22,634 nucleotides of DNA from a virus, in IMG/VR virus record IMGVR_UViG_3300009537_000193, positions 1-22,634 of that record; one strand, written 5' to 3'. Position 1 is the first letter of the stretch; the number at the start of each line of letters is the position of its first letter. Under the pieces are notes generated by a model, which saw nothing but the letters and a program-made list of their open reading frames with translations, was not told where the DNA came from and searched no databases. Below, piece by piece: positions 11,015-22,634 of this stretch. The translations under genes were made by a program, and so were the position numbers.

Positions 11015-13116
11015 GTCGATGTTGTCCCGCCAATGATCTCTTCCAGTTTTGCGCGGAAGCGGTTGTACCTGTCCGCGGCGCTGACCTTTTGCTGCGGCGC
11101 GCCGATGGCTTCGAGTATGTCCGCCGGCACGCGAATCCATGCTGGCTCTGCCGACTCCGAGATGTGCCCGCGATTGGCCCATCCCTGCTTGGCCGCCATC
11201 GACCTCTTTGGATCCGGCGGAGGCCCGGCGTCTGAGACCGCCTCGCCCGAGAGGTCCTCCTCCGGCACTCCGGCAAACGGGTCGTCAGCGTCGGATACGG
11301 CTTCCTCTCCCCCACCTTCCTGGCCTGGTGGAGGCTGCGGCGCCCCGGGCATTCCAGGAGGCGCGCCTCCCTGATCCTGACCCATCGCCTTGTCCCACTC
11401 CTTCCAGTCCGCCATCACCTGGGCAACGTCGTTGCCGAGTTTGCCGATCTCGATCTGCGGACTGGTCACCTTCGCCTGGAGGTTGGCCGATCGAGCCTGC
11501 GAGAGCTCGCCCTCGTTGTTCTTGTGGACCTCCATGCCCTCGACGGTGATCTTGACGAGCGTGAGCGCCTCCTGCGGCAGCATGCCGCACTTCACCGCCC
11601 AGCGCACCACGCGCCACATGAGGCGCAGGAACGTCATCTTGAAGTGCTCCTGCTCGGCCTCGGCCGAGCGGACGTATGGAGTCCCGGCCTCCTGCGTCGA
11701 AGCGTAGTTCGCGTTTGAGGCATCGCCGGAGATCATGTACTCCGGCATCGATCCGGACGCGCCGGCCTGGCGCAGGTCGCCTTGGGCCGCCTGCATGTAG
11801 TTCGGCACCTGGGTCGTCGCCGGGTCGGGAACCGGCTCCTGGCCGGCCGGCACGCGCCGGATCTGTCCTGCTCGCACGCGCTGCTCGGTGAACTGCGCGC
11901 CGAGGCCGTCGCTGACCGACTTGGCGAACGGGTGTCCCTCTGCCAGTCGCTGGATCGCGGCCTTGTCGCCGATCGTGTGCTTCCACACCTCGGCGGTCGC
12001 CGCCTGGACGGCGCTGGTGATCGAGATGTTCCTCTGGAGATTGGTTGCGCGCAGGATCGCGTCGAACGTGTCGTAGGCGAACACGGGAGTGCCGCGCTTG
12101 ACCTCGGCGTCCTCCCAGGGGTCCTTGACGTGGACGATGTCCGCGGCCGAGACGACCTCGCCGACGCCGTCTCCGTCCTTGCCACGCGGCGCGTCCGTCA
12201 TGCTGTGCGGGCGGATGTAGTAGGCGACGATGCGCTCCAAGTCTTCGACGCGCACCGGCTGGCCTTCCTCGTCCTCCTCCCACGAGACGAAGTGCTGGAC
12301 GCCTGCGCTCCAGCCGTCATTTTCGGAGTGCGCGGCCGGCGCGCCGTAGATCACCTCCGGACCAACGAACCGCACGTCCACGCGGCCGCTCTTGCGCCGG
12401 AACAGCCGGATGATCGCCTCGCCGTCGCGCTTGGTGCGCCAGTGCGCCTCGCGCTCCCTCGTGCTCGACGCCGCGTTGACCGAGCCGTCCTCGGCTACGT
12501 CGCTGTTGCTGGCAGCCGTGTTCCAGTTGTTGCGCTCGCAGAATTCGTCGATCCACGCCTGCACGCCGCCGACCACCTTCTCGACCAGTTTCTTCTTCGC
12601 GTCGTGCTGCTTCTTTGCCGCCTCGTTTGCGGCCGGATCGTTCGGGTCCTCGATGAATGGCTTGTTCTCCTTGGCCTGGGCCCGGTAGGAGAACCCCTTG
12701 CCAATGACGTGGTTGACGGAGTTGCGCAGCATCGCCTTGGCGAAGTCGTTCGTGCCGGCGAGGAGTCGCGACGCCTGAATCGTTCGGTGCCGCTCCGCGT
12801 CCGTGCGCCAGAGTGGCCACTTGGCGCCGCCGCGGCGGTCGTTCGGCGTGGCCGGCGGAACCGCGAGGCCGCCAGCCTGGGACCGGGCCCGCAAAAAGAA
12901 TTCGGTCGTGTCGGTGCCGCCGAATCCGTCCCACCCGAACGAATGGAACGCCTCCATGAGCACCTGGCTCTCCAGGAGGTTGCGGCGGTAGCGGTTGGCG
13001 ATGCGCATTTCCTTCGTCTTGGCGCGCATCTCTTCGGGACTCAATTCGCGCTTTGACTCGCGAGGTGATTGCTCAAACGCACCAGGAGGTGGGTGACCGT
13101 TGATTTGCTCCGGCAT
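11011..13116 (-). CDS. Phage portal protein
   Basis: This is a 701-residue portal of the lambda-like type, which forms the dodecameric ring at the capsid vertex through which DNA passes. Visible features are ARSQAGGLAVPPATPNDRRG at the N-terminus, the long-helix region ASRLLAGTNDFAKAMLRNSVN, a VRFVGPEVIYGAP wing-like segment, the IVHVKDPWEDAEVKRGTPVF stretch that matches the conserved portal I-x-H-x-x-x...R-G-x-P motif, DAILRATNLQRN, and PEYMISGDASNANYASTQEA. The last 130 residues are Pro-, Gly- and acid-rich and then basic, an extension beyond the usual length. The GGAG SD is ten bases ahead of the ATG. The small genes at 13225 and 13494 precede it, and the coiled-coil gene overlaps its stop. 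Packaging genes lie upstream at 14943 and 18779. Confidence 0.9.
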   Translation of the reverse strand: MPEQINGHPPPGAFEQSPRESKRELSPEEMRAKTKEMRIANRYRRNLLESQVLMEAFHSFGWDGFGGTDTTEFFLRARSQAGGLAVPPATPNDRRGGAKWPLWRTDAERHRTIQASRLLAGTNDFAKAMLRNSVNHVIGKGFSYRAQAKENKPFIEDPNDPAANEAAKKQHDAKKKLVEKVVGGVQAWIDEFCERNNWNTAASNSDVAEDGSVNAASSTREREAHWRTKRDGEAIIRLFRRKSGRVDVRFVGPEVIYGAPAAHSENDGWSAGVQHFVSWEEDEEGQPVRVEDLERIVAYYIRPHSMTDAPRGKDGDGVGEVVSAADIVHVKDPWEDAEVKRGTPVFAYDTFDAILRATNLQRNISITSAVQAATAEVWKHTIGDKAAIQRLAEGHPFAKSVSDGLGAQFTEQRVRAGQIRRVPAGQEPVPDPATTQVPNYMQAAQGDLRQAGASGSMPEYMISGDASNANYASTQEAGTPYVRSAEAEQEHFKMTFLRLMWRVVRWAVKCGMLPQEALTLVKITVEGMEVHKNNEGELSQARSANLQAKVTSPQIEIGKLGNDVAQVMADWKEWDKAMGQDQGGAPPGMPGAPQPPPGQEGGGEEAVSDADDPFAGVPEEDLSGEAVSDAGPPPDPKRSMAAKQGWANRGHISESAEPAWIRVPADILEAIGAPQQKVSAADRYNRFRAKLEEIIGGTTST

Positions 13117-13225
13117 GGCGGCACCGCTCCGTCAGGCGGCGCGCCGCTCTCACAGAAGCGACGGCGTTTCGTTCTCCCCGGATCGCGGCTGCATCGCGGT
13201 CCAGGGGTCGTAAAAAATCTGGCAT
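13073..13225 (-). CDS. Possible small basic protein overlapping the portal start, 50 residues
   Basis: The ATG overlaps the TGA of the zinc-ribbon gene (TGATG), giving MPDFLRPLDRDAAAIRG. It is basic and Arg/Ala-rich, and ends inside the first 44 bases of the portal gene. Codon use is plausible and the coupling is close, but no family is recognised and overlap with another coding frame weakens the case. Confidence 0.4.
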   Translation of the reverse strand: MPDFLRPLDRDAAAIRGERNAVASVRAARRLTERCRHAGANQRSPTSWCV

Positions 13226-13494
13226 CACTTCGCCGCGGCCAGGACCTCGGCCTTCGTCTGGCCATGCTGTGGGTCGAGAACCTCCTGGCACTTGGAGCAC
13301 ACGAAGACCTCGACCTGGAAACAGATCGGCAGGGCGCCGATCACGTTCGTCGGCTTGGCGTAGGTTACCTTGCGCCGAAGGTCGAACAAGTCGCTGCCGC
13401 ACGGGCAGCAGCGCATCTGGTCGTCGGGAACCTTGAGAACCTGTACGCCTCCGTTCGTGGGGATGCGGAACTCGTGAAAAATTGGATCGGCCAT
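13225..13494 (-). CDS. Zinc-ribbon phage protein, 89 residues
   Basis: A CCPCGS knuckle near residue 28 and VCSKC near residue 66 give the CxxC...CxxC spacing of a zinc ribbon, with a small beta sheet between (FDLRRKVTYA, ICFQVEVFV). The protein begins MADPIFHEFRIPTNGG. The ATG at 13494 is chosen over an upstream alternative because GAGGA lies eight bases ahead. It precedes the portal and is coupled to the small overlapping gene. Zinc-ribbon proteins of this size occur in many phage packaging regions, probably as nucleic acid- or protein-binding adaptors; the exact role is unknown. Confidence 0.7.
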   Translation of the reverse strand: MADPIFHEFRIPTNGGVQVLKVPDDQMRCCPCGSDLFDLRRKVTYAKPTNVIGALPICFQVEVFVCSKCQEVLDPQHGQTKAEVLAAAK

Positions 13495-13505
13495 GCTGGA
13501 AATCC

Positions 13506-13853
13506 TCACGCCTCCACTATGAACCACCGCGTATTCTTGATTTTGCGCTTCTTATCCGAATCTTGCCAATTACAATCCTGCCCCTCATTGACAGTTGGCA
13601 AAACCAGGCAACCCCACCGCATGGAGGATAGGCCAAAGTAGGCATGACCATTCACGATAAATTCCTCGCCATCTACCCTGATGACGTCACCGTCCTCGAC
13701 TTGGTAGCAGCGGATGGCGTCCCAACGACCCGTACTGCGCGACTTGCGATAAAACTTGCGCAGATCGCGCTGACACCAAAACGAGCGGAGTCCCTCCGCC
13801 AACAAAATGAAGGCGGCGAAGAGAACGCAAAACAAAAAATTCCGGCGCTGCAT
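13506..13853 (-). CDS. Single-span membrane or secreted protein, 115 residues
   Basis: The start MQRRNFLFCVLFAAFILLAE gives a basic tip and a hydrophobic segment (residues 5-22) that can be a signal anchor or signal peptide. The remaining residues include a charged region (RDLRKFYRKSRSTGRW) and a beta-rich part (DAIRCYQVEDGDVIRVDGEEF, HAYFGLSS). The ATG at 13853 is preferred over a GTG at 13862, with GGGTGGGTG as ribosome binding site. Base composition is less GC-rich than its neighbours, so it may be a later arrival in the structural operon. A membrane protein here could act in superinfection exclusion or host takeover; that is only inference. Confidence 0.6.
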   Translation of the reverse strand: MQRRNFLFCVLFAAFILLAEGLRSFWCQRDLRKFYRKSRSTGRWDAIRCYQVEDGDVIRVDGEEFIVNGHAYFGLSSMRWGCLVLPTVNEGQDCNWQDSDKKRKIKNTRWFIVEA

Positions 13854-13854
13854 G

Positions 13855-14070
13855 TCACCCACCCAACATATCGTGCCGCTTCAGCCTGATCTCTCTGTAT
13901 CCAGCTGCCCTGACGACGACGTCGGCGACCAGGTACGTCACGCCCCTGAAGATCACTTCAGATCTGACGCGAACGTCGGCATCGTCGGGGACCGCGATGG
14001 TGACCGGCACGGTGCGCCCGACTTGCCTGGCTACCACGGTGACGCCGTCGATAATCACGGTCTCATTCAT
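13855..14070 (-). CDS. Small beta-rich phage protein, 71 residues
   Basis: The protein begins MNETVIIDGVTVVAR and continues with strands TVPVTIAVPDDADVRVRSEVIF, TYLVADVVVRAAGYREIRL; it is almost all beta and ends KRHDMLGG. It is unrecognised. AAGGAGGG is eleven bases ahead of the ATG but lies in a predicted hairpin (14080-14099). The stop is immediately followed by the next gene's ATG. Probably a small structural or head-completion protein by position. Confidence 0.6.
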   Translation of the reverse strand: MNETVIIDGVTVVARQVGRTVPVTIAVPDDADVRVRSEVIFRGVTYLVADVVVRAAGYREIRLKRHDMLGG

Positions 14071-14079
14071 CAAAGAAGG

Positions 14080-14099
14080 CCCCCTCCTTTAGGCGGGGG
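14080..14099 (-). other. Hairpin covering a ribosome binding site
   Basis: On the leftward transcript five C at 14099-14095 pair with five G at 14084-14080, and two more C-G pairs close a UAAA loop, with one G-A mismatch between. The AAGGAGG SD of the 71-residue gene is thus largely buried in the stem, which would limit initiation unless the structure is opened. Confidence 0.4.
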
Positions 14100-14106
14100 G
14101 GGTTGG

Positions 14107-14364
14107 TTACTCCCAGAGCGCCAGCATCAGCGTGGCGGTGGTTCCCGTGCTCCAGACCCTCGACACCGAGATCGGCAAGAAAGTCCCGGCCGGGACCGCG
14201 GTGAACGTCACTGCGTCACCTCCGGCCATCGTCACCTTGACGTTACCGACGCCGCCGACCCAGAGGCCCTTGGTCGTGTAGGCCAAGTCGGCCAAGTCGC
14301 TCGGCGTCACGGCCGCGGCGCGGGTCGATGCCGTCGGTCCGGTGTTTGACTGGATGATCGACAT
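14107..14364 (-). CDS. Spike-base-like virion protein, 85 residues
   Basis: The pattern VTPSDLADLAYTTKGLWVGG, VGNVKVTMAGGDAVTF, VPAGTFLPISVSRVWSTGTT and a final ALW-E closely resembles the short phage and gene-transfer-agent family annotated as spike base protein (RCAP_rcc01079 type). Members are small beta proteins thought to sit at the base of head spikes; the assignment here is by recalled pattern and was not searched. ATG at 14364 is chosen because GGAGG lies eight bases upstream; an upstream in-frame start lacks one. It is the first gene after the TATAAT promoter and operator at 14387-14435. Confidence 0.65.
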   Translation of the reverse strand: MSIIQSNTGPTASTRAAAVTPSDLADLAYTTKGLWVGGVGNVKVTMAGGDAVTFTAVPAGTFLPISVSRVWSTGTTATLMLALWE

Positions 14365-14386
14365 CGGTTTTCCTCCGCGAGCCAAA

Positions 14387-14403
14387 CCTTGAAATCGTCA
14401 AGG
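14387..14403. promoter_or_regulatory. Operator copy CCTTGA-N5-TCAAGG
   Basis: A perfect 6-bp inverted repeat around a 5-bp centre (CCTTGAAATCGTCAAGG). On the minus strand it matches the site at 22384-22400 in 15 of 17 positions. It begins three bases downstream of a leftward TATAAT, so a bound protein would cover the transcription start. Confidence 0.7.
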
Positions 14404-14405
14404 CG

Positions 14406-14435
14406 ATTATACACGGACCTACCGGACCACGTCCA
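14406..14435 (-). promoter_or_regulatory. Leftward sigma-70-type promoter for the structural block
   Basis: A perfect TATAAT -10 (14411-14406) stands 18 bases from TGGACG (14435-14430), a moderate -35. It lies in the gap before the spike-base-like gene, after the stop of the gene at 14419, and would transcribe towards the portal and the polyvalent gene. The operator lies at its start site. Confidence 0.6.
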
Positions 14436-14616
14436 GTCTTTTCAGTTGGTCCTCGGTGATTTCTTGCGAGTAGGCCGCGACGATGCGCCAGCCGTCTCCC
14501 CAGATGCCGCTCTCCTTCAAGCTGAGAACCTGGTCGCGCATGGCGAACTCCGACGGTATCCATGACACCTGGCGCACGCCAGAGCCCGATTCTAACTCGC
14601 ATTGCCTATAGGTCAT
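14419..14616 (-). CDS. Small conserved phage protein, 65 residues
   Basis: It begins MTYRQCELESGSGVRQVSWI, then PSEFAMRDQVLSLKESG and a closing GWRIVAAYSQE, ending LKRLDVVR. The (Q)V-x-W-I-P-x-x-F-A followed by a small beta hairpin is a pattern I recall from small phage genes between terminase and portal; function unknown. The ATG at 14616 is preferred over an upstream in-frame start that overlaps the next gene's end. A GAGA SD is weak. The -35 of the structural promoter lies just at its stop. Confidence 0.55.
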   Translation of the reverse strand: MTYRQCELESGSGVRQVSWIPSEFAMRDQVLSLKESGIWGDGWRIVAAYSQEITEDQLKRLDVVR

Positions 14617-14653
14617 TCTTGATCTCTCGATCTCGCATTGCGGGTTGAACCGA

Positions 14654-14890
14654 TCAAGGGCCTCGCCCGTCGAACAATGTTCCACCCACGACTACGTTGC
14701 CAGAAGGATCAACATAAACCTGCCCGGCCCGGCACAGTTCGCCGTTTACGCTAATGGTTCGTGGACCTTGAATAGACACGCCGTGAGCAACGAGGAACGC
14801 GGCGACAGCCATTGCGACCTCGTCTCCAGTCAATTCTACTGCAACGCCAGGGCCGAATTCGGTCTTTCCTTGTCCGTACATGACTTTCAT
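14654..14890 (-). CDS. Small hypothetical phage protein, 78 residues
   Basis: From the ATG at 14890 (GGAG seven bases ahead) the protein reads MKVMYGQGKTEFGPGVAVEL, then a helix TGDEVAMAVAAFLVAHGVSI, then beta strands around TISVNGELCRAGQVYVDPSG and a closing VVVGGTLF. It is not recognised. It lies immediately downstream of the large terminase with 52 bases between, and before the promoter that serves the portal block, so it is probably co-transcribed with the terminase. Confidence 0.55.
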   Translation of the reverse strand: MKVMYGQGKTEFGPGVAVELTGDEVAMAVAAFLVAHGVSIQGPRTISVNGELCRAGQVYVDPSGNVVVGGTLFDGRGP

Positions 14891-14942
14891 CTTTATCTCC
14901 ATGCGAACATGCGAACTGCGCACACACCGGAACGCCATCAAC

Positions 14943-16505
14943 TCACGCCTGCAAAACCTGAATCCCCGCGCCGCCCATGTCCGGATTGCGACCGTTGAGG
15001 ATGAAGTCGGCTATCTCTTCGGCCGTGGCCAGGCAGTCAGGCCCGTCGTCGTGGTCGGCGCCGAGTCCGGGCGTACTCGAATACTCGCGAGTCTGCTGCA
15101 CCAGAACCCGTCCGCCGGGCGTGTTGCGCACGCGGAGTCGCTTCTGCGCGAGGTACGGCGACAGGCCGGCCCGGATCCGCTGGCCCTTGCTGATCGTGTG
15201 CGCCACGGTGTAGACGGACAAGAAGACGCCGCGCTCGCGCGCGTAGCGCAGGAGCGCGAAAGCGACCCACTCCTGGAAACCGTTCGCCTCGACGAGGATC
15301 GCCTCCGGTTTGAATTCCTGGATCAGCCGGAAACCGTCGCCGACGATCGAGCGCATGTCCGGCGAACTCGCCAGCGGCTCGACCGGCCGCGCGTTGTCGA
15401 GGTCCGCGTCGGCCCACAGAGTCCACTGAGGATCGACGCCGAGCATCACCCATGCCGAGTAGTCGCCGCTGCGGTCCTGCTTCCCTTTCGACGGGTCGCA
15501 CGCCATGACCTTGCAGATCAGATCCGGCGGCCACTCGTCGAACAGGATATGCGGCCCGAAGAACTCGGGCGGGAACTCCAGGCCCTCGGCAGCAGCCGCG
15601 TGGTCGATGTCGAGTTCCTGCGCCACGAGCCTGGGATCGCCGATCCGGATGCGCTCGGCCTCGTACCACGCCTGATCCTTGCGGGGATCGTCGTGCCAGT
15701 GGAAGCGAAACCTCTGCTCCGGAGGGAGCGACGTCAGCCGCTTATAAAACGGCGTGTGCGTTCCGTGCGGGGTCGAGACGTCGATCCGGCACCGCGTGGT
15801 CTGCGAGAGCGCCGCCGCCGCCCGGTCGGGATGCTCTAAATAGGCCGCCTCGTCTACGATATACATCGTCACGCGGTCGCCGCGGCCAACCTGGTCGCCG
15901 ACTTCCCCGGTGATTGACGAGTCGATAGCCGGGTTCGTCAGCTTGCAAAAGGTGTCGTGGCGCACCCAGTTGAACCCGGCCGGCATCATCCACGTCGGCA
16001 GGCGGCGCAGGATGAACCGCATCTTCTCGAAGATGCTCTTCATCTCGCCGATCTTGTCCACCTTGGGTTCGGTGTGCGAGGTGACGCCCATGCGGAACCC
16101 GCTGCGGAACAGCCACGAGTGCGCGCCGTAGCCGCAGAACAGCCACGTCACGCCGACCTCTCGCGACTTCTCGCAGCTGCCGTCCTTCTGCTCGACCTCC
16201 ATGCGGCGCAGCCACTTGAGGAACTCTATCTGTCTTGGGAAAAGCACGAACGGCATCGTCGCCGGCACGCCGTCGGAAATGAACCTGGGGTCGTAGGTGT
16301 CAACGTAGTTCGCGAACCAGTATTCGATGTCGTCGCGGCACCTGGCGTACTCCACGGCCCGCTGCCGCGGGTCGGCCTCGCAGGCGAGCTCGATCTCGTA
16401 CCGCTGAACGAGCGACGACTCGACCTGGGCCAGGAGGTACGGCGCGAAGCTCGTCGCCGGGGCCGGCGCCGAGGCCAGTGAGCTAACCGGCGCGTCCACT
16501 GTCAC
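14943..16505 (-). CDS. terL: Phage terminase large subunit
   Basis: This is the DNA-packaging motor, an ATPase fused to a headful- or site-cutting nuclease, 520 residues. Residues 113-121 (KSREVGVTW) are the Walker A-like loop with the adenine-binding SRE-G motif. TMYIVDEAAYLE holds the Walker B and catalytic acid (D218, E219), and DVSTPHGT (242-249) is the coupling motif III. The nuclease triad is visible as D337 in ACDPSKG, E406 in VEANG and the DHDDGPD cluster (484-490). It starts at GTG, with AAGGAG ten bases ahead, and has no alternative start nearby. The small terminase is separated from it by a 2.3-kb cassette of small genes, which is unusual. It acts on the portal with the small terminase. 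Confidence 0.93.
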   Translation of the reverse strand: MTVDAPVSSLASAPAPATSFAPYLLAQVESSLVQRYEIELACEADPRQRAVEYARCRDDIEYWFANYVDTYDPRFISDGVPATMPFVLFPRQIEFLKWLRRMEVEQKDGSCEKSREVGVTWLFCGYGAHSWLFRSGFRMGVTSHTEPKVDKIGEMKSIFEKMRFILRRLPTWMMPAGFNWVRHDTFCKLTNPAIDSSITGEVGDQVGRGDRVTMYIVDEAAYLEHPDRAAAALSQTTRCRIDVSTPHGTHTPFYKRLTSLPPEQRFRFHWHDDPRKDQAWYEAERIRIGDPRLVAQELDIDHAAAAEGLEFPPEFFGPHILFDEWPPDLICKVMACDPSKGKQDRSGDYSAWVMLGVDPQWTLWADADLDNARPVEPLASSPDMRSIVGDGFRLIQEFKPEAILVEANGFQEWVAFALLRYARERGVFLSVYTVAHTISKGQRIRAGLSPYLAQKRLRVRNTPGGRVLVQQTREYSSTPGLGADHDDGPDCLATAEEIADFILNGRNPDMGGAGIQVLQA

Positions 16506-16546
16506 GGAGATACTCTCCTTCCGGCGTCATCGCTCACCCTCCACAA

Positions 16547-16690
16547 TCAGCTTTGCCGCCTTCGCCGCATCGGCCACGGTCGCAGTTCATCGCGTACCGC
16601 ACTGGAACAATACTTCCTGTATATCAATGATCTCGCCGTCTCAAATCCTGTTCCGCAAAACAAGCACTCGACTTTTAACTTTGGCCCCAT
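16547..16690 (-). CDS. Small Cys-rich zinc-finger-like protein, apparent frameshift near its end
   Basis: From an ATG that overlaps the TGA of the frame before it (TGATG) come MGPKLKVECLFCGTGF and LIYRKYCSS, the CxxC and YCS pattern of a small phage zinc finger. The fourth ligand expected in such fingers (about four residues after YCS) is not in this frame. After ELR the frame becomes Arg-rich (WPMRRRRQS), which looks like a shifted reading. The -1 frame instead continues TVADAAKAAKLIVEGER to a stop at 16527-16529. A single missing base would therefore restore one protein of about 55 residues. It is too short for an ordinary ORF cut-off but fits tightly between its neighbours. Confidence 0.5.
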   Translation of the reverse strand: MGPKLKVECLFCGTGFETARSLIYRKYCSSAVRDELRPWPMRRRRQS

Positions 16691-16848
16691 CAATCACCGC
16701 CTTTCATCGCCGCGTCGATAGCTTCGCGGCTAATTTTCAGTGGCTTTGCGTGAGTAGGCCATTGGTCTACGCTGACATGGCCTCGCGACTCCAACCAATC
16801 CAGCCTCTCCGCATCGGCTCGCAGCCCACGCACCAACGCCAGCGCATC
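16690..16848 (-). pseudogene. C-terminal fragment of a frameshifted small phage gene
   Basis: This frame reads DALALVRGLRADAERLDWLE and ends REAIDAAMKGGD, a sequence pattern typical of small phage proteins. In its own frame there is no credible start: upstream codons give an Arg/Cys-rich out-of-frame sequence. It joins smoothly to the first 74 residues of the 17069 gene by a -1 shift near 16848, as if one base were missing. The alternative is a separate gene using an internal GTG inside the other frame. Confidence 0.45.
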
Positions 16849-17069
16849 TGCACACGGCCCAGTTCTGCAACCACGGTCATCGTGTCGTTCCAGTCGGTGA
16901 GCGGTTGCCAAATCCTGGCACGCCGGTTTTCTGTTGCACTCGCATACCAGCCTGTCCAGTTGTCCGTTCCTTTTTCCATGTACACCCCGGAACGATTTGC
17001 CCACTCCATAACCTCCCAGGCGACGGCGGCAACGAGTTCGGCGTCAGTCAGTGTTTTTGGGACGGTCAT
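16767..17069 (-). CDS. Small phage protein, probably frameshifted in its last third
   Basis: From the ATG at 17069 (AAAGGTGG ribosome binding site within a 21-bp repeat) it reads MTVPKTLTDAELVAAVAWEV, GVYMEKGTDNWTGWYAS and PLTDWNDTMTVVAELG. The TDAEL...AWEVM...W...STDWN-type pattern is recalled from small phage proteins of unknown function. After about residue 74 it turns into a Trp/Arg/Met-rich tail (MRWRWCVGCEPMRRGW), typical of a wrong frame, whereas the -1 frame continues with good coding sequence. It may therefore be a gene of about 126 residues carrying a one-base deletion, real or from assembly. Confidence 0.55.
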   Translation of the reverse strand: MTVPKTLTDAELVAAVAWEVMEWANRSGVYMEKGTDNWTGWYASATENRRARIWQPLTDWNDTMTVVAELGRVQMRWRWCVGCEPMRRGWIGWSREAMSA

Positions 17070-17247
17070 CTACGCACCACCTTTCACTTCGGAGATTCCA
17101 CCTGCCCTTGAATCGCCGCAAACTGCCGTCTTATTTCGGCACGGCATTCCGCGTACAATCCCTCCAGGAGCCAATCCCGCAAAAACGGAATCAGGAAAAG
17201 AAGGGTGCGTATTTTCTCAGAATCATTCATCTACGCACCACCTTTCA
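17066..17247 (-). repeat. 21-bp direct repeat carrying stop, ribosome site and start codon
   Basis: An identical 21-bp segment occurs at 17066-17086 and 17227-17247, 161 bp apart. On the leftward transcript each contains AAAGGTGGTGCGTAG followed by ATGA. In the 17227 copy it forms the end of one gene (stop TAG) and the start of the next. In the 17066 copy it comes just after the 48-residue gene, reads through its last bases and starts the 17069 gene. It resembles a duplicated gene-junction cassette. Confidence 0.7.
17084..17230 (-). CDS. Small amphipathic protein, 48 residues
   Basis: This short gene begins MNDSEKIRTLLFLIPFLRDW, followed by a helical part (LLEGLYAECRAEIRRQFAA) and a GQVESPK end. 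The first half is a hydrophobic/basic amphipathic helix that could touch a membrane or another protein. The ATG directly follows the TAG of the 86-residue gene, and AAAGGTGG nine bases ahead, inside the repeat, is its ribosome site. Codon use and coupling on both sides support a real gene; function is unknown. Confidence 0.6.
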   Translation of the reverse strand: MNDSEKIRTLLFLIPFLRDWLLEGLYAECRAEIRRQFAAIQGQVESPK

Positions 17248-17491
17248 TCGCCGCGTCGATGGCGGCGTCTAACGCCTCATGCACATCGGCATTCTGAACC
17301 TTTGCGCCTGACCAATCGCACATACGAATGGCGTCAACCAGCCGTTCCACATCGGCCCGCAGCCGTTCGCTCTCGGCCAGCAACTCCCGCACAGCCGCAA
17401 CGTCGCTGCCTTCGATCGGCCCGTCGTCGCCGTTGCCGTTAGCGGCTTCGACGAGCCATTTCAGGTGGTCGATTGCTTCTTGTGTTGTCAC
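17231..17491 (-). CDS. Small helical phage protein, 86 residues
   Basis: The start is GTG at 17491, six to seven bases after a perfect GGAGGTG, and the GTGA overlaps the stop of the previous gene. The ATG further upstream lies inside that gene. The product begins MTTQEAIDHLKWLVEAANG, has a VAAVRELLAESERLRADVERL coiled helix and ends AIDAAMKGGA, almost the same end as the fragment at 16690. The shared AIDAAMKGG ending suggests paralogy or recombination between small genes of the cassette. No function is known. Confidence 0.65.
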   Translation of the reverse strand: MTTQEAIDHLKWLVEAANGNGDDGPIEGSDVAAVRELLAESERLRADVERLVDAIRMCDWSGAKVQNADVHEALDAAIDAAMKGGA

Positions 17492-17706
17492 GGCACACCT
17501 CCATCCTTCCACAGCGGGCGAAAGTCGGTTTCAGCGTTCCTTGGCGCTTGGCCAGAGCCAGGGCACGTTACCAATTCGTGACTGGCGCCCGTGCCAATCG
17601 TACAGCCCATCGAGTCCTCTGGCGCACGGACCATTATTTCATGCGTCGGGATCAGCGGATTGCACGCTCTTTGCGAATACTCACGGCCACAATGCGGGCA
17701 TTGCAT
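17488..17706 (-). CDS. Zinc-binding small phage protein, 72 residues
   Basis: MQCPHCGREYSQRACNPLIP, then THEIMV and, near the end, CPGSGQAPRNAE followed by RPLWKDGG. A CPHC knuckle plus C-P-G-S-(G)-Q-x-P-R-N is a small-phage-protein signature I recall from related elements; the protein probably binds zinc through CxxC and later Cys residues. Start choice is between this ATG (AAGTGAG ahead) and an in-frame ATG ten codons earlier (GGAGGG fifteen bases ahead). The next gene's GTG overlaps the stop. The 93 bases up to the next gene at 17830 hold no clear gene. Confidence 0.6.
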   Translation of the reverse strand: MQCPHCGREYSQRACNPLIPTHEIMVRAPEDSMGCTIGTGASHELVTCPGSGQAPRNAETDFRPLWKDGGVP

Positions 17707-17829
17707 GATGCTCACTTCGCACGTCCTTTCTGTCATAATCACTATTCCGCCCTCCACTTCATAGGGCATCGGCCTCAACGGGCCGACATGCCGGTATCGG
17801 ACACGCACCACGCGCCAGGAACCGCTACG

Positions 17830-18165
17830 CTACGATTCTTCGACGTACCCAATTTTGCCGCTCGTCTTGAGAAACTTGGCGTTGCGTATCGTCACCATGT
17901 CGAAACCAGCCGCCTGAGTCAGCAAGTCCAGGTATATTTCCACATCGGCAAGTTCTTCGGCTAGCATCGTTTTAAGCTCTGCTTCCGTTTCCTTGTTGCC
18001 AGGGATTCCATCACGAACGCGGTTCAGTTTCTTGATGATATTTGCGGCCTCACCAAGCTCGCCAGCCGTGGCCGTGAGCCAATCGCTCAGGCTCCACGAT
18101 TCGAGTTTGTGGTTGAAGCCGTTTTTGGCCTCGCATCGCAATTTGTTTCTCTCGCTGAATGTCAT
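17830..18165 (-). CDS. MazG-like nucleotide pyrophosphohydrolase
   Basis: Members of the MazG/dUTPase-2 superfamily hydrolyse NTPs or dNTPs to monophosphates. The 111-residue product has WLTATAGELGEAANIIKKL (E-L-G-E-A first acidic helix), then RVRDGIPGNK and AEELADVEIYLDLLTQAAG (E-E-L-A-D second acidic helix), the two metal-binding helices of the fold, and ends KTSGKIGY, a usual K-x-x-S-x-K-x-G-Y signature. Start at ATG 18165 is chosen because GGAG lies six bases ahead; another ATG four codons up is possible. It lies in the small-gene cassette between the two terminase genes, where it may tune nucleotide or alarmone pools during infection. Confidence 0.75.
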   Translation of the reverse strand: MTFSERNKLRCEAKNGFNHKLESWSLSDWLTATAGELGEAANIIKKLNRVRDGIPGNKETEAELKTMLAEELADVEIYLDLLTQAAGFDMVTIRNAKFLKTSGKIGYVEES

Positions 18166-18243
18166 TCGATTCTCCATTGTTGCCCCAGAAACCGCCTCGC
18201 CCGCTCCCGCAGCAGACGCACCGCAACCTGCACAGCCGCCGCC

Positions 18244-18765
18244 TCAATACCCCGGTTGCACCCACCGAACCAACTCCGTATCAGCCCGCAAAAAAAGAGG
18301 ATGCTTCGGGTCGCCGCTCTTGGTTACGCCCAAACAAACTGCTCCTTGTTGCACGCAAGCCGCCGCTGCGTTGCAATACGCCGTGCGAAACAGGCTCCGC
18401 TTTTTCGGCCCCAGCCGATTGCCCCAGGCCGCGACAACCTTCGTTCCCAACTTCACCGATGACGCGCCAATCAGCAGTCCCAGGTTCTTCGGCCCCACCG
18501 GGTCAGGGTGCGTCAATAGTTCCCGCTCGTCCGTGGCTCGCAACGCGAACACATTGCGAACCACGATGCCACCGCAGCCTTCCCGCTTCGCGAAGCCTAT
18601 GCAGCGGCGGATCGTTGGGTCGTCGTCGTCTGCGTCGGCGGTCGATGGGTTCTGCATAATGAACGCCAGGACTGGCCGATCTTCATCCCACAAACGCCAG
18701 AGGTTGTAGCGGTACAAGCCGCACTCGCTGATTGTTGCGCCTGATTTTAGGAACAAGTCACTCAT
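18244..18765 (-). CDS. DUF1643 family protein
   Basis: The 173-residue product has C-G-L-Y-R-Y-N-L-W-R-x-W, FIMQNPSTADADDDDPTIRR, CIGFAKREGCGGIVVRN and FALRATDERELLTHPDPVG, exactly the DUF1643 layout. The family has no established biochemical role, is common in phages and mobile elements and is soluble; the DDDPTIRRC core looks like an acidic metal- or ligand-binding site, which is inference. The ATG at 18765 is used because GGGGGTGG is well placed and an upstream start would overlap the small terminase. It follows the small terminase by 13 bases, so it belongs to the same transcript. A 66-base gap to the MazG-like gene holds a possible short frame. Confidence 0.8.
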   Translation of the reverse strand: MSDLFLKSGATISECGLYRYNLWRLWDEDRPVLAFIMQNPSTADADDDDPTIRRCIGFAKREGCGGIVVRNVFALRATDERELLTHPDPVGPKNLGLLIGASSVKLGTKVVAAWGNRLGPKKRSLFRTAYCNAAAACVQQGAVCLGVTKSGDPKHPLFLRADTELVRWVQPGY

Positions 18766-18778
18766 GCCACCCCCACGA

Positions 18779-19408
18779 TCATTGCGGTACTCCGTTCCCG
18801 TTCGCGACTGGCTCACTCGCTGCGGACCGCCGCTCGTTGATGGCCTCGCGGAGCCGCCGGATCCTCTCGTCCGCCGGCAGCGCCTTGAAGTCGTCCGAAC
18901 TCACGTCGATCAGCGCCGCCTGGAGCGGCGCGCCGCCCGGGCCGCTGACCTCGGACTTCGTGAACTTCGCGAACTTATCCGGGTTATTGGCCCGCAGCAG
19001 AAACTTTAAGAGCTCGTCCGAGTAGCGGCGGACGTGCCCGATGATCTCGCCGCGAAAATACTGAGGTTCGAGGACGCCGTGGTACGCGCGGCGGTTGGCT
19101 TCGGCCTCCAGTTCCTCACGGCCGACCTGCTTGGCCTCGTCCCAGGCCTTGGCGAACGCTGGCTCTTCCTTGCGCCGCTGGTAGGGCCTGGCGATGTCCA
19201 CCTTGGCGAGTTCCGCGGCGTCGCGGGCGTGGATTCCGGAGGCCACGCAGCGAAGGAACTCCGGGGCCCAGTCCGGCGTGCCGAGCGGCGGCCGACCCGG
19301 TCGGCCGCGTTTCCTGGTGGGTCTCTTGTTTTTTTTGCTTCCGGAACGGCGTCGCGCTGAGTTTTTCCTAGAGTTCGCGCCGGTTTTTGGTGTCTTGCTC
19401 TTCGCCAT
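18779..19408 (-). CDS. terS: Phage terminase small subunit (probable)
   Basis: This 209-residue protein has a very basic N-terminal tail (KSKTPKTG, RKNSARRRSGSKKNKRP) followed by a helix-turn-helix near 48-80 (APEFLRCVASGIHARDAAEL and VDIARPYQRRKEEPAFAKAW). It ends with RRYSDELLKFLLRANNPDKF and a charged C-terminal part, the pattern of small terminases that recognise the packaging site and hand DNA to the large subunit. The 41-base overlap with the upstream small gene and the weak ribosome site point to translational coupling. The large subunit lies 2.3 kb downstream after the small-gene cassette. Identification is by layout and motif, without search. Confidence 0.75.
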   Translation of the reverse strand: MAKSKTPKTGANSRKNSARRRSGSKKNKRPTRKRGRPGRPPLGTPDWAPEFLRCVASGIHARDAAELAKVDIARPYQRRKEEPAFAKAWDEAKQVGREELEAEANRRAYHGVLEPQYFRGEIIGHVRRYSDELLKFLLRANNPDKFAKFTKSEVSGPGGAPLQAALIDVSSDDFKALPADERIRRLREAINERRSAASEPVANGNGVPQ

Positions 19409-19592
19409 GACAAAGGCTCAACTCGTAGTAAAAGTACCGGCCGCCGCTGCCGGCGAGGAATTCCTTGTGGTTGTGCGTGAACCGGACTAGGCATTTCTCG
19501 CCGACCGCCTTGATGAACGCGACCACGGCGCCGGACGAGGTGCGCAGCAGCGTTCCAGACTGGAGGATTGAGGCCTGCTCGCGACTCAGCAT
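19368..19592 (-). CDS. Small hypothetical protein, 74 residues
   Basis: It begins MLSREQASILQSGTLLRTSS, continues with beta strands GAVVAFIKAVGEKCLVRF and FLAGSGGRYFYYELSL, and ends in a charged tail that runs into the small-terminase start (41-base overlap). The start ATG overlaps the stop of the upstream gene (ATGCTGA), with GGGGCGGGG as a rough ribosome site. It is unrecognised, looks like a small beta barrel, and belongs to the leftward packaging operon. Confidence 0.55.
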   Translation of the reverse strand: MLSREQASILQSGTLLRTSSGAVVAFIKAVGEKCLVRFTHNHKEFLAGSGGRYFYYELSLCHGEEQDTKNRREL

Positions 19593-19915
19593 TTCCCCGC
19601 CCCTTGGGCTGCCGACAGTTCGTCGATCCACTTCTCGACGGCCTGCAACTGACTAAATATCGCCTTGATCGCCTTGGCATTGCCGTTGACGCATTCATCG
19701 ACCACTACCGCGACGGCCGCGGACGTGATGGCCGCCACGAGCTCCTCGGCTTCGCTGCGGCACTCAAGGCGGTAGCCGAACTTTCCAGCCACTCCAGAAT
19801 TGACTTCGAGAATGCACTGCTCCAGAGGTCCATCGACAATCCTGACGGAATCGATGGCGCTGATCCGGATGATGCCCCGGTCTCCTACTAGCCAGCCGTT
19901 TTCAATCTTGACCAT
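19586..19915 (-). CDS. Hypothetical protein, first gene of the leftward packaging operon, 109 residues
   Basis: It begins MVKIENGWLVGDRGIIRISA, with a beta-rich half up to about residue 50 (DSVRIVDGPLEQCILEV, GKFGYRLECRSEAEEL), then a helical part (AAITSAAVAVVVDECVNG, AIFSQLQAVEKWIDEL). The alternating pattern resembles a PH-like or similar small fold, but no family is recognised. GGGGAG lies ten bases ahead of the ATG. Its promoter (19957-19986) overlaps an operator copy, so it heads the transcript that includes the small terminase. Confidence 0.6.
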   Translation of the reverse strand: MVKIENGWLVGDRGIIRISAIDSVRIVDGPLEQCILEVNSGVAGKFGYRLECRSEAEELVAAITSAAVAVVVDECVNGNAKAIKAIFSQLQAVEKWIDELSAAQGAGKC

Positions 19916-19956
19916 GCCGACGACTCCCCATATGTAGAACGCCGCGCCTGCAAGCC

Positions 19957-19986
19957 AGTATAGTCGAGCCGCCTTGAATTTGGCAA
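19957..19986 (-). promoter_or_regulatory. Leftward sigma-70-type promoter for the packaging operon
   Basis: A -35 TTGCCA (19986-19981) stands 18 bases from a -10 TATACT (19962-19957) on the minus strand, about 40 bases before the ATG of the 109-residue gene. Its -35 lies within an operator copy. Confidence 0.7.
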
Positions 19987-19988
19987 GT
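19972..19988. promoter_or_regulatory. Operator copy overlapping the -35 box
   Basis: On the minus strand ACTTGCCAAATTCAAGG matches the site at 22384-22400 in 15 of 17 positions; the differences are the first base and the A to C in the TTGAC core. It covers the -35 of the leftward packaging promoter, so repressor binding would compete with RNA polymerase. Confidence 0.65.
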
Positions 19989-20026
19989 TTGCCCCAAAAA
20001 TCTCCGCAAATTATCTCCGCATAGCC

Positions 20027-20055
20027 TTGACTTGTCCGCGACTTAGTCTTAAAAT
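20027..20055 (+). promoter_or_regulatory. Rightward sigma-70-type promoter of the early-type operon
   Basis: TTGACT (20027-20032), an exact 17-base spacer and TAAAAT (20050-20055) give a near-consensus promoter about 40 bases before the first rightward gene. Just upstream, ATCTCCGCA occurs twice (20000-20008, 20013-20021), a 13-bp period that might be a regulator site. No operator copy overlaps it, so it is likely controlled differently from the leftward promoter. Confidence 0.75.
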
Positions 20056-20094
20056 GAAGGTATAAGCGATTCCCAAGCGAGCGGAGGTCCGACC

Positions 20095-20385
20095 ATGATA
20101 GCCTGGCAGCGCAAGAAGATCTCGATCAACCGCTGGGAGGCCTGCGGCTTCTCGATCACCCAGACCGCCGACCTTGACGGCGTGCCGTTTACCCTGGCGA
20201 CGCCGGACGGCGCGGATGTCGAGTTCGACGACCTCGACCTGGCCAAGCGCCACGCTGAACTCCTGAACGACCTGAGCCTGGAGCGCGAGGAGTGCCGGCG
20301 ACTGCGAGACGAGGTGCGCCTGCTGCGCGACGGCCAGCACTTCGAGCGGACCGCCGCCCTGAACGGGAAGCAACAACTCAACTAA
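20095..20385 (+). CDS. Small phage protein with C-terminal coiled coil, 96 residues
   Basis: First gene of the rightward operon, with GGAGGT eight bases before the ATG. Residues 1-40 (WQRKKISINRWEACGFSI) are followed by a beta stretch (VPFTLATPDGADVEFDD), and residues 48-80 form a long charged helix (LAKRHAELLNDLSLEREECR) likely to be a coiled coil. Function is unknown. A position just after the near-consensus promoter suggests an early, possibly regulatory or replication-linked protein; this is position-based inference. Confidence 0.65.
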   Translation: MIAWQRKKISINRWEACGFSITQTADLDGVPFTLATPDGADVEFDDLDLAKRHAELLNDLSLEREECRRLRDEVRLLRDGQHFERTAALNGKQQLN

Positions 20386-20400
20386 CCCATGAGGTGAAAC

Positions 20401-21012
20401 ATGAAGGTTCGTTACGCCACGCCCGACCAGCGCCTCGCCTTCGAGTTCGAGGCCCAGACCGACAAGCAGGTTTTCGCGCAACTGGCGCGCATTCAGGAAG
20501 TCTTCGAGGAATCCGCCTGCGGGTGCTGCGGCTCCCACGACGTCCACCACGAGGTGCGCGAGTTCGACGGCAACAACTACTACAAGCTGGTTTGCGCCCC
20601 GTGCGGCGCGACGCTCGATTTCGGCCAGAACAAGGTCGGAGACACGCTCTACCCGAAGCGATTGCACAAGGACACCCGCGCGGCGCTGCCGCACCGCGGC
20701 TGGTATCGCTACCAGGAATCCCACCCCGAGGCGCAACAGGCGGCCGCCCCTGCCGCGAAGGCGCCGACGCCGGCTGCAAAGCCGGCACCGGCTCCTTCGC
20801 AGGAGCGCCACGAACCGCGCGGCGAGGATCCCACTCCATACCAGAAGGCAATCGCCGGGATGCACGGCGCGAAGACCAAGGACTTGCTCGACCAGTGGGC
20901 CAAGTGGTCCAAGTTGCTGCGCGGCCTGACGCCGCGGCAGCTGGCCAAGCTGGAGGACGTCTACCAGGAGGAATCGCAGAAGTTTCAGGATGAATTGGTT
21001 GGGGCGGCGTAA
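20401..21012 (+). CDS. Cys-rich domain phage protein with Ala/Pro linker, 203 residues
   Basis: Residues 1-38 are beta-helix (MKVRYATPDQRLAFEFEAQT, FAQLARIQEVFEES), then ACGCCGSHDVHHEVREFDGN and VCAPCGATLDFGQNKVGD, two CxxC knuckles of a zinc ribbon followed by the F-G-Q-x-K-x-G signature that I recall from phage proteins of unknown function. Residues 115-150 are an Ala/Pro/Lys linker, and the end is helical (QKAIAGMHGAKTKDLLDQWA, QLAKLEDVYQEESQKF), perhaps a partner-binding helix bundle. GAGGTG is seven bases ahead. Such proteins are often near recombination or single-strand-binding genes, though none is seen here. Confidence 0.7.
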   Translation: MKVRYATPDQRLAFEFEAQTDKQVFAQLARIQEVFEESACGCCGSHDVHHEVREFDGNNYYKLVCAPCGATLDFGQNKVGDTLYPKRLHKDTRAALPHRGWYRYQESHPEAQQAAAPAAKAPTPAAKPAPAPSQERHEPRGEDPTPYQKAIAGMHGAKTKDLLDQWAKWSKLLRGLTPRQLAKLEDVYQEESQKFQDELVGAA

Positions 21013-21051
21013 ATGCGAGTCTGGGAAGGCCCGTCAACTTCAGAGAGACGC

Positions 21052-21669
21052 ATGAAAACCAAAAATGAAAGGCTTGTCGAGGATCGCGTCGGCGACGACT
21101 TGAAGGATCACGTCGTCACGGTCATTCGCTGCGACGGGATGCACCGGCACTATCGTTGCCAAAAGCCGGGAACGTGGAACATGGGCTTTGACGTGGTGAC
21201 GTGGCCCGGCTCGCTCTGCTATACCGGCGACATGGGCGATTACCTATTTCAGCGCACCGAGGACATGATCGCATTCATGCGCGGATCGGCAATGAGTTAT
21301 GGCTATGCCGCTGAAAAGTGCGTGGCTCACGATGGTCGCCTGGAGGAGTTCAGCGAAGAGATTTTCGAGCAAGTCCTGGCCGAGCGGATCAAGGATTTTG
21401 AGGGTGAGGGCGGAAAAGCCACGCTGCTGCGTAATGAAGAAAAACGCCAAGAGGACGTTGCCGAGATTATCGACGACATTCGGCAGCAGTTTAAGACATA
21501 TTCCGCTCCGTTCGATGCCGAAAGGGCGATGTTTGAATCCGGCCTGTGGGATGGATGCGACCTGCCGAGTTGCGAAACGTGGACGTTTCACTTTCTCTGG
21601 GCATTGCACGCAATCAAATGGTTCTGCGACAAGGTTGATCGCGGGGACGTTAAGGGAGCAAAACCATGA
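21052..21669 (+). CDS. Conserved phage early-region protein, 205 residues
   Basis: The ATG at 21052 (MKTKNERLVEDRVGDDLKDH) is chosen over one at 21013 that directly follows the previous stop, because an AGAGAG site is better placed and family members begin with this helix. TVIRCDGMHRHYRCQKPGTW, then FDVVTWPGSLCYTGDMGDYL and QRTEDMIAFMR follow, a set recalled from uncharacterised phage and prophage proteins of several bacteria. The F-D-x-(V/I)-T-W-P-G-x-L and T-G-D-M-G-x-Y-x-F core is well kept. The rest is helical and ends CDKVDRGDVKGAKP. No enzymatic motif is recognised. The stop overlaps the next gene (ATGA). Confidence 0.65.
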   Translation: MKTKNERLVEDRVGDDLKDHVVTVIRCDGMHRHYRCQKPGTWNMGFDVVTWPGSLCYTGDMGDYLFQRTEDMIAFMRGSAMSYGYAAEKCVAHDGRLEEFSEEIFEQVLAERIKDFEGEGGKATLLRNEEKRQEDVAEIIDDIRQQFKTYSAPFDAERAMFESGLWDGCDLPSCETWTFHFLWALHAIKWFCDKVDRGDVKGAKP

Positions 21670-21872
21670 AGACCAAGATCGAAAAGATTGACGGGGGCGG
21701 CCGCGCCGTAGTCGTGACCACGCGGACGCCGGCTGGGTTTCAGACCGAGATCATCGGCGGCGTCCTCGACGGCGAGGTGTTCAGGACTCGCCGGGATCCT
21801 GCCAGGCAGCACAGCGGGGCCGTCGCCCTGGCGGTCGGCGTGGAGATCGCCGAGTCGGCCACTGCGGCATGA
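21666..21872 (+). CDS. Small hypothetical protein, 68 residues
   Basis: It begins MKTKIEKIDGGGRAVVVTTR, is beta-rich (FQTEIIGGVLDGEVFRTRRD) and ends in an Ala/Val/Glu stretch (VALAVGVEIAESATAA). It is coupled to the preceding gene by an ATGA overlap and is the last gene of the rightward operon. Only 14 bases separate its stop from the convergent CsrA stop, and no terminator hairpin is seen there. No family is recognised. Confidence 0.6.
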   Translation: MKTKIEKIDGGGRAVVVTTRTPAGFQTEIIGGVLDGEVFRTRRDPARQHSGAVALAVGVEIAESATAA

Positions 21873-21886
21873 CGCAAGGGCAGCAT

Positions 21887-22078
21887 CTAGCGAGGCTGAG
21901 TCTCAGATTCTCCCTGTGCGCGGCCCTTCGCCTCCTTGACTTCCGCGCGGTCAACCTCGATTTCACCAGGAGCCGTTATGCCGATCCTGACCTTGCCGCG
22001 ATCGACGCCGCACACCGTGACGACCACGCCGGCGCCGATCTTGATGGACTGGCCTTTTTTGCGACTCAGAACGAGCAT
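21887..22078 (-). CDS. csrA: CsrA/RsmE carbon storage regulator
   Basis: This 63-residue product is a full-length CsrA homologue, a homodimeric RNA-binding protein that binds GGA in hairpin loops and usually blocks ribosome binding. The sequence MLVLSRKKGQSIKIG, VTVCGVDRGKVRIGITAP and EIEVDRAEV matches the family throughout: L4 and R6 on the first strand and R44 in the V-D-R-A-E-V strand are the main RNA-contact residues and all are kept. The Shine-Dalgarno GGGAGGT is ideal. It lies 27 bases downstream of the HTH regulator gene and is almost surely co-transcribed with it. Its presence beside phage regulatory operators suggests the phage retunes host or own mRNAs; the targets are not visible beyond the nearby hairpin at 22410. 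Confidence 0.9.
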   Translation of the reverse strand: MLVLSRKKGQSIKIGAGVVVTVCGVDRGKVRIGITAPGEIEVDRAEVKEAKGRAQGESETQPR

Positions 22079-22105
22079 AGCGACCTCCCTGCCGTTTGGA
22101 TTTGC

Positions 22106-22318
22106 CTACGCCGGCTGCGCGACCTTGTTTTCGCGTGCCTCGCGCAGCCACTGCATGATTAGCTGCCGCGTGCCGCCCGTGGGGCAGCGACCCTCGTTGA
22201 TCCAGCGAGACACCGCGCCCTCGGTCATTTCCAGGGCCCGGGCCAGATCGGCCTGCGACCACTCGCGCAGGCGCATCAGTTCTTTAATATCGCGCACCGA
22301 CATTTTTTTTGCACTCAC
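22106..22318 (-). CDS. Cro/CI-type helix-turn-helix regulator, 70 residues
   Basis: The GTG at 22318 follows AAAAGGAGG by five bases; an upstream TTG frame has no ribosome site and covers the operator, so it is rejected. The product MSAKKMSVRDIKELMRLREW-SQADLARALEMTEGAVSRWI holds a complete XRE-type helix-turn-helix (SQADLARALEMTEGAVSRWI as helices 2 and 3) and a short C-terminal helix (QLIMQWLREARE). Length and single domain resemble Cro-like repressors, which dimerise on palindromic sites. Paired CTTGA-N5-TCAAG operators lie 28-82 bases upstream, so it is the best candidate binder of all four copies in the window. It is followed by the CsrA gene. Confidence 0.85.
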   Translation of the reverse strand: MSAKKMSVRDIKELMRLREWSQADLARALEMTEGAVSRWINEGRCPTGGTRQLIMQWLREARENKVAQPA

Positions 22319-22345
22319 ATGGGCCTCCTTTTTTTTACCAAGCGG

Positions 22346-22362
22346 TCTTGACAAATTCAAGC
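22346..22362. promoter_or_regulatory. Operator copy 1 upstream of the HTH gene
   Basis: TCTTGACAAATTCAAGC on the plus strand matches the copy at 22384-22400 in 15 of 17 positions. It is the proximal one of the pair before the HTH gene, and the -35 TTGACA of the rightward promoter lies inside it. Confidence 0.7.
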
Positions 22363-22376
22363 CCTGTTTTTAGGAT
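22348..22376 (+). promoter_or_regulatory. Rightward sigma-70-type promoter flanked by operators
   Basis: TTGACA (22348-22353), a 17-base spacer and TAGGAT (22371-22376). The -35 overlaps operator copy 1 and the transcription start would fall at operator copy 2, so it should be tightly regulated by whatever binds them. It drives the structured stretch after 22400. Confidence 0.6.
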
Positions 22377-22383
22377 TACATCA

Positions 22384-22400
22384 CCTTGAATTTGTCAAGG
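22384..22400. promoter_or_regulatory. Operator copy 2 upstream of the HTH gene
   Basis: CCTTGAATTTGTCAAGG, a perfect 6-bp inverted repeat with a 5-bp centre. It is the 15-bp-arm inverted partner of the site at 22347-22361 (23 bp between). It is the best match to the consensus of the four copies. Confidence 0.75.
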
Positions 22401-22409
22401 CGCAGCCGA

Positions 22410-22426
22410 ACCGGCACGGAGCCGGT
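22410..22426 (+). promoter_or_regulatory. Hairpin presenting a CsrA-type ACGGA loop over a ribosome site
   Basis: A perfect 6-bp stem (22410-22415 ACCGGC with 22421-22426 GCCGGT) closes the loop ACGGA, which is the ANGGA core seen in CsrA-binding hairpins. The GGAG that begins in the loop is also the Shine-Dalgarno for the short ORF at 22428, which is the classical arrangement for CsrA repression. Confidence 0.45.
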
Positions 22427-22427
22427 G

Positions 22428-22553
22428 ATGCTGGGTCAAGGATTGGGGGAGGCCAGCCGCACCCATCTCGGGGGGCTGGCCTTGAAGACAACACGGTCGG
22501 GAAAACCGGCGGCGCGGGTTCTTTTTCCCCGCGCCGTTGGGCCTGAAAAGTAG
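22428..22553 (+). CDS. Possible short ORF after the hairpin, 41 residues
   Basis: It begins MLGQGLGEASRTHLGGLALK and is basic, with GGAG six bases ahead of the ATG. No family is recognised, and the frame passes through two strong hairpins (22450-22482, 22510-22536), so it may be a chance frame in an untranslated leader. If real, it would be the first product of the rightward promoter. Confidence 0.25.
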   Translation: MLGQGLGEASRTHLGGLALKTTRSGKPAARVLFPRAVGPEK

Positions 22554-22634
22554 CAGGACCCGGCCTCCAAATTTTCCCCGGCGCCGGCCGACGGTGTAAT
22601 GGGCGACGCCGACTCGCGGTCGGGCCGGGGAATT
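22450..22634 (+). other. Highly structured, mostly non-coding region
   Basis: A 9-bp stem (22450-22458 with 22474-22482) and a 9-bp GC stem (22510-22518 with 22528-22536, loop TTCTTTTTC) are followed by palindromes near 22589 (CCGGCGCCGG) and a CCGAC-TCGCG-GTCGG hairpin before the window end. No U-tract follows the GC stem on the plus strand. It may be an untranslated leader, a small RNA or an origin-like element. No further gene could be supported. Confidence 0.4.

Follow-up and report, generated by a model that had tools for sequence, protein, structure and literature searches.

Four near-identical 17-bp sequences lie spread over 8 kb of a virus record, and they raise the question of whether one DNA-binding protein reads all of them and, if so, which protein that would be. 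The window, that is, the whole stretch of DNA that was analysed, is this record of 22,634 bases, likely a fragment, in which the last site lies 234 bp before the end. The four sites were re-read directly at the positions given by an earlier note, and their sequences are as it had claimed:

14387–14403, minus strand: putative operator 1, CCTTGAAATCGTCAAGG as written and CCTTGACGATTTCAAGG when oriented, directly 3' of a minus-strand TATAAT
19972–19988, minus strand: putative operator 2, CCTTGAATTTGGCAAGT as written and ACTTGCCAAATTCAAGG when oriented, overlapping a minus-strand -35
22346–22362, plus strand: putative operator 3, TCTTGACAAATTCAAGC, overlapping the -35 of a predicted rightward promoter
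22384–22400, minus strand: putative operator 4, CCTTGAATTTGTCAAGG as written and CCTTGACAAATTCAAGG when oriented, at the predicted start of the rightward promoter

In a common orientation, which is the reverse complement for the sites at 14387, 19972 and 22384 and the sequence as read for 22346, the 22384 copy is identical to each of the other three at 15 of 17 positions, in agreement with the earlier estimate. The outer arms are palindromic, CTTGA-N5-TCAAG, with one imperfect arm in site 19972. The centre is asymmetric, with C next to the arm in one half (GAC; GCC in 19972) and A in the other half (GAA). Since the centre is not palindromic, the sites have a direction, and in each case this is the direction in which the assigned promoter or gene is transcribed. 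Sites 22346 and 22384 have 15-bp cores that are exact reverse complements of each other, are 38 bp apart from centre to centre and bracket the rightward promoter. None of the four sites lies inside a gene, although 91% of the window is coding according to the gene list of this analysis.

The recurrence of the sites is well above what chance would give. The pattern CTTGAN5TCAAG is found three times in the window, compared with 0.04 times per second-order shuffle. The scan with mismatches used a 15-bp core, CTTGACAAATTCAAG, from which the four sites differ at 0, 0, 1 and 2 positions, while the next-best match in the window has 3 mismatches and lies inside a gene. With up to 2 mismatches allowed, 4 sites are seen against about 0.04 expected in third-order simulations of the window sequence, and none of 2000 simulated windows had 3 or more; as the core was derived from the data themselves, this figure is not a pure p-value and somewhat overstates the significance. 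The intergenic placement is evidence separate from these mismatch statistics. In 49 comparison virus records (about 3.25 Mb, mostly csrA phages) CTTGAN5TCAAG occurs 21 times, a rate from which about 0.15 would be expected per 22.6 kb compared with the 3 in the window, and none of these 21 occurrences has the AAATT centre. The window thus holds several copies of one site, above chance, as a dispersed operator set does.

Between 13,000 and 22,634, an independent scan for the sigma-70-type consensus, which yields consensus matches rather than mapped starts, gives four promoters that agree with the consensus at 10 of 12 positions, and three of these carry a site:

14406–14435, minus strand: predicted promoter TGGACG-18-TATAAT (10/12), heading the spike-base/portal block, with site 14387 directly after the -10
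19957–19986, minus strand: predicted promoter TTGCCA-18-TATACT (10/12), heading the TerS/TerL block, with site 19972 over the -35
22348–22376, plus strand: predicted promoter TTGACA-17-TAGGAT (10/12), with site 22346 over the -35 and site 22384 at the predicted start
20027–20055, plus strand: control promoter TTGACT-17-TAAAAT, divergent and equally good (10/12), without an operator

The coincidence of three sites with such promoters, as first proposed, is borne out: sites 19972 and 22346 lie over the -35, and site 14387 lies just after TATAAT, where it would cover approximately the transcription start and the bases that follow it. The promoter at 20027 has a TTGACT -35 without the palindrome, so that the palindrome is no by-product of the -35. 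Transcription from the rightward promoter, which the paired sites bracket, would run off the end of the record. Behind the leftward promoters are the following genes, roughly as had been described:

14107–14364, minus strand: spike base protein (RCAP_Rcc01079 family; NCBIfam NF048002, E 1.2e-24; PHROG 12296), the first gene behind operator 1
11011–13116, minus strand: portal protein (Pfam PF05136, E 4.3e-12; PHROG 21), in the block behind operator 1
18779–19408, minus strand: terminase small subunit, TerS (PHROG 4044, E 4.4e-28), behind operator 2
14943–16505, minus strand: terminase large subunit, TerL (PHROG 5989, E 1.3e-23), further along the operator 2 block

Site 19972 therefore faces the TerS/TerL block and site 14387 the spike-base/portal block, and the overlap of the sites with predicted promoters of lytic or late genes is what a dispersed operator set would present. 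Sequence statistics, intergenic placement and promoter overlap give good support to the view that a single family of operators occurs at several of this phage's promoters.

Two other features of the window are recorded here for their own sake. Two small minus-strand frames at 16690–17069 and 17231–17512 have a near-identical peptide end (IDAAMKGG) and similar DNA around their ends, which looks like a local duplication. On the plus strand at 921–1010 is a tRNA-like element; its acceptor stem has 7 bp and its variable arm is long. It scores 34.7 bits against the Rfam tRNA-Sec model, below the gathering score, and is not called by ARAGORN; it is possibly a degenerate tRNA or an attachment site.

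The paired sites lie next to a gene for a small helix-turn-helix (HTH) protein, which is followed by csrA:

22106–22318, minus strand: 70-aa Cro/C1-type HTH protein, the candidate regulator, with a GTG start at 22318 and AGGAGG at 22324–22329, 5 nt upstream
21887–22078, minus strand: csrA, RNA-binding regulator (PF02599, E 8.4e-20), directly behind the HTH gene

The HTH protein matches HTH_3 (PF01381) at 31.1 bits, above the cut-off of 23 (E 2.5e-7), and falls in a PHROG of transcriptional regulators; no other Cro/C1-type regulator was recognised among the scanned proteins of the window. Its single-sequence structure model is weak (pLDDT 75.5, pTM 0.49) and gave no meaningful match to a solved structure. 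Both genes read away from sites 22346 and 22384. The suggestion that two sites flank the upstream region of the Cro-like gene needs amending: they are indeed upstream of the GTG at 22318, by 28 and 66 bp, but both are on the same side of the gene. The consensus scan found no convincing minus-strand promoter for the HTH gene near site 22384. Of a divergent regulator pair of the lambdoid type, the leftward regulator alone lies inside the record, which ends 234 bp past the last site. Judged from just its position and its HTH_3 family, the HTH protein is probably the one that binds the sites.

On these grounds we consider it likely that the four sites are dispersed operators of a phage-encoded repressor, with the 70-aa HTH protein as the best candidate. 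In this reading, a small Cro/C1-type protein would bind the imperfect 17-bp palindrome as a dimer, and this protein is most likely the one encoded at 22318–22106; a near-symmetric site of this length would fit a dimer of a Cro-sized protein. The bound protein would block RNA polymerase by covering the -35 (19972 and 22346) or the start region (14387 and 22384); occupying the -35 or the start point is how a repressor keeps polymerase off a promoter. As a result, the two late leftward operons (TerS/TerL and spike-base/portal) would be held down, as would the rightward unit that runs past the record end; the HTH-csrA operon itself may be regulated through the paired upstream sites. Working promoters, protein binding and repression at the sites are what we infer from sequence. 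The proposal that one repressor controls the packaging genes, the structural genes and its own region thus holds as far as one operator family at several promoters is concerned, while the part given to the HTH protein as regulator rests on proximity and HTH type. A more specific scheme is rather doubtful: the Cro-sized protein, co-transcribed with the phage CsrA, would directly silence both late operons and the rightward unit by way of a single type of operator. HTH protein (transcription) and CsrA (translation) would then together form one small bicistronic late-gene switch without a late activator.

The same operators might instead be read by another protein, either a different phage repressor (for example, one of the CI type to the right of the record end) or a host regulator, with the HTH protein acting elsewhere. 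We regard this as somewhat unlikely, even though HTH genes are common in phages, proximity is what ties this one to the sites, and the record is a fragment with a rightward promoter leading out of it; since it extends just 234 bp past the last site, the gene for another repressor could be beyond its end. Against it, the HTH gene is the sole recognised regulator of its type among the scanned proteins, two of the four sites are within 70 bp upstream of its start, and there is no obvious reason for a host regulator to occupy two late promoters of a phage. Late gene blocks are switched on by an activator in many phages, and two of the three site-bearing promoters serve such blocks, so the sites could be operators of an activator or timing factor that turns late promoters on rather than off. 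An activator usually sits upstream of the -35, but these sites cover the -35 or follow the -10, and the promoters already have 10 of 12 consensus positions, which makes this improbable.

Beyond the rightward promoter, the plus-strand stretch of 252 nt from the predicted start to the record end (22383–22634) is without a recognisable gene, its longest frame being at most 55 aa, and it folds far better than its shuffles (z -5.15). It has no Rfam match above threshold and no counterpart among phages or plasmids, and it could be a structured leader or a small RNA. The fold bears on whether the palindromes are RNA hairpins in leaders, serving as translation or stability elements, perhaps with CsrA, and not DNA operators. 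Site 22384 would be the 5'-most hairpin of this rightward RNA (252 nt, z -5.15), and site 14387 the 5'-most of its own mRNA, ahead of GGAGG. However, site 19972 lies over a -35 and would be absent from the transcript of that promoter, the asymmetric centre is conserved among the sites while a hairpin loop needs none, and the whole 14387 leader folds no better than shuffles (z -0.10). CsrA prefers GGA, and the loops are without it. Hairpins are accordingly a very improbable account. Least credible, to the point of being negligible, is luck, by which a TTGACA -35 would have become embedded in a palindrome at several promoters. The half-site CTTGACA does contain the -35 consensus and the core was defined after looking, but the 4 sites against 0.04 expected, the 0 of 2000 simulations with at least 3, the lack of a -35 in site 14387 and the -35 without a palindrome at 20027 all speak against it.

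A search for the 17-bp pattern in related phages, a check proposed beforehand, produced no homologous site set in the collections searched. Neither IMG/VR nor the GTDB contigs yielded a relative with HTH protein and operator together, which leaves the sites without a phylogenetic footprint. In these contigs TerL has distant matches only, at best 43%, and one TerL relative (L005) also has a 28% portal relative; a peptide-pattern scan of IMG/VR found no relatives of portal and TerS. The HTH protein has one 39% match, in an unrelated context and without a site. The csrA loci have at most two other genes in common with the window, and those compared include neither a close HTH protein nor a site with this centre. 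No close relative of portal, TerL, TerS, the HTH protein or the right-hand non-coding stretch came from the phage and plasmid collections, and the Rfam search gave sub-threshold matches only.

Matches of the exact 15-mer listed from IMG/VR are at about the level estimated for chance in so large a collection. One contig with both a 15-mer match and an HTH relative (L117) was set aside as a relative of the system, its site being inside a gene. The double CTTGAN5TCAAG pattern occurs at 41 places, most of them spaced in whole codons and hence read as coding Leu/Lys repeats rather than paired operators; a stricter double-site pattern has no match. Another contig (L315, IMGVR_UViG_3300017963_000430) has csrA and two structural genes in common with the window, but its palindrome is different, and it too was set aside. 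It carries five copies of CGGTC-N5-GACCG, at 4512, 9920, 13957, 14523 and 14977, two of them directly before a ribosome-binding site and ATG, and 100 shuffles gave no such family with more than 3 copies. In an otherwise unrelated AT-rich viral contig (L275, IMGVR_UViG_3300005265_000744), four CTTGA-N5-TCAAG sites, three of them CTTGAATTATTCAAG and one CTTGAAGAATTCAAG, lie within 1.6 kb near the end (13093–14643), two of them 36 bp apart.

Several known systems offer parallels for the proposed arrangement. The operators of lambdoid CI and Cro (lambda, P22, 434) are imperfect palindromes of about 17 bp, paired around a promoter beside a gene for a Cro-sized HTH protein, and the palindromes, the pairing and the adjoining HTH gene in the window are alike in these respects. 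Lambdoid operators are clustered at OR and OL and late genes are reached via an antiterminator, whereas here the sites are dispersed and directly at predicted late promoters. In the Streptomyces phage phiC31, conserved inverted repeats (CIBs) scattered over the genome are bound by the phage repressor; these are scattered like the present sites, but sequence and repressor differ by description. In kind, the arrangement is comparable to the dispersed operators of P1 C1 and of L5. P1 has 22 operators for its C1 repressor, 17 bp long and widely dispersed over the genome, as here, which hold lytic genes down and provide autoregulation (PMC8546580). In P1 the consensus is ATTGCTCTAATAAATTT, which lacks symmetry and has no sequence relationship to the near-palindromic sites of the window, and by description C1 differs in size from the 70-aa HTH protein. 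P1 C1 is described as reaching late genes via the activator Lpa, whereas here the predicted late promoters themselves carry sites. In mycobacteriophage L5 (Cluster A), more than twenty 13-bp sites have an orientation that follows transcription (PMC9283540), and many copies occur across the genome, at promoters and elsewhere (PMC9283540, PMC6550527). The window likewise has copies of one site at promoters, oriented with transcription. In L5 the sites lack symmetry and are read by a monomeric protein of about 183 aa, which has two DNA-binding domains, an HTH and a Stoperator domain (PMC9283540). The present sites are not of this stoperator type, being 17-bp imperfect palindromes beside a 70-aa protein with one HTH, and unlike in L5 there are only four copies, none a clear non-promoter 'stoperator'. 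The regulon had been called apparently undescribed; this is right for the motif, which was not found in the literature searched or in any relative from the collections searched, but dispersed repressor operators are an old kind, already known from other temperate phages.

The sites are thus a real feature, their interpretation as operators is sensible, the HTH protein is a candidate regulator by sequence, and the dispersed-operator kind to which they would belong is already known. The finding would make a regulatory map readable for a phage without a close relative in the collections searched, with the 17-bp site as a precise, testable target for one small protein. It would also be a case in which late promoters bear repressor operators directly and do not only await an activator or antiterminator.
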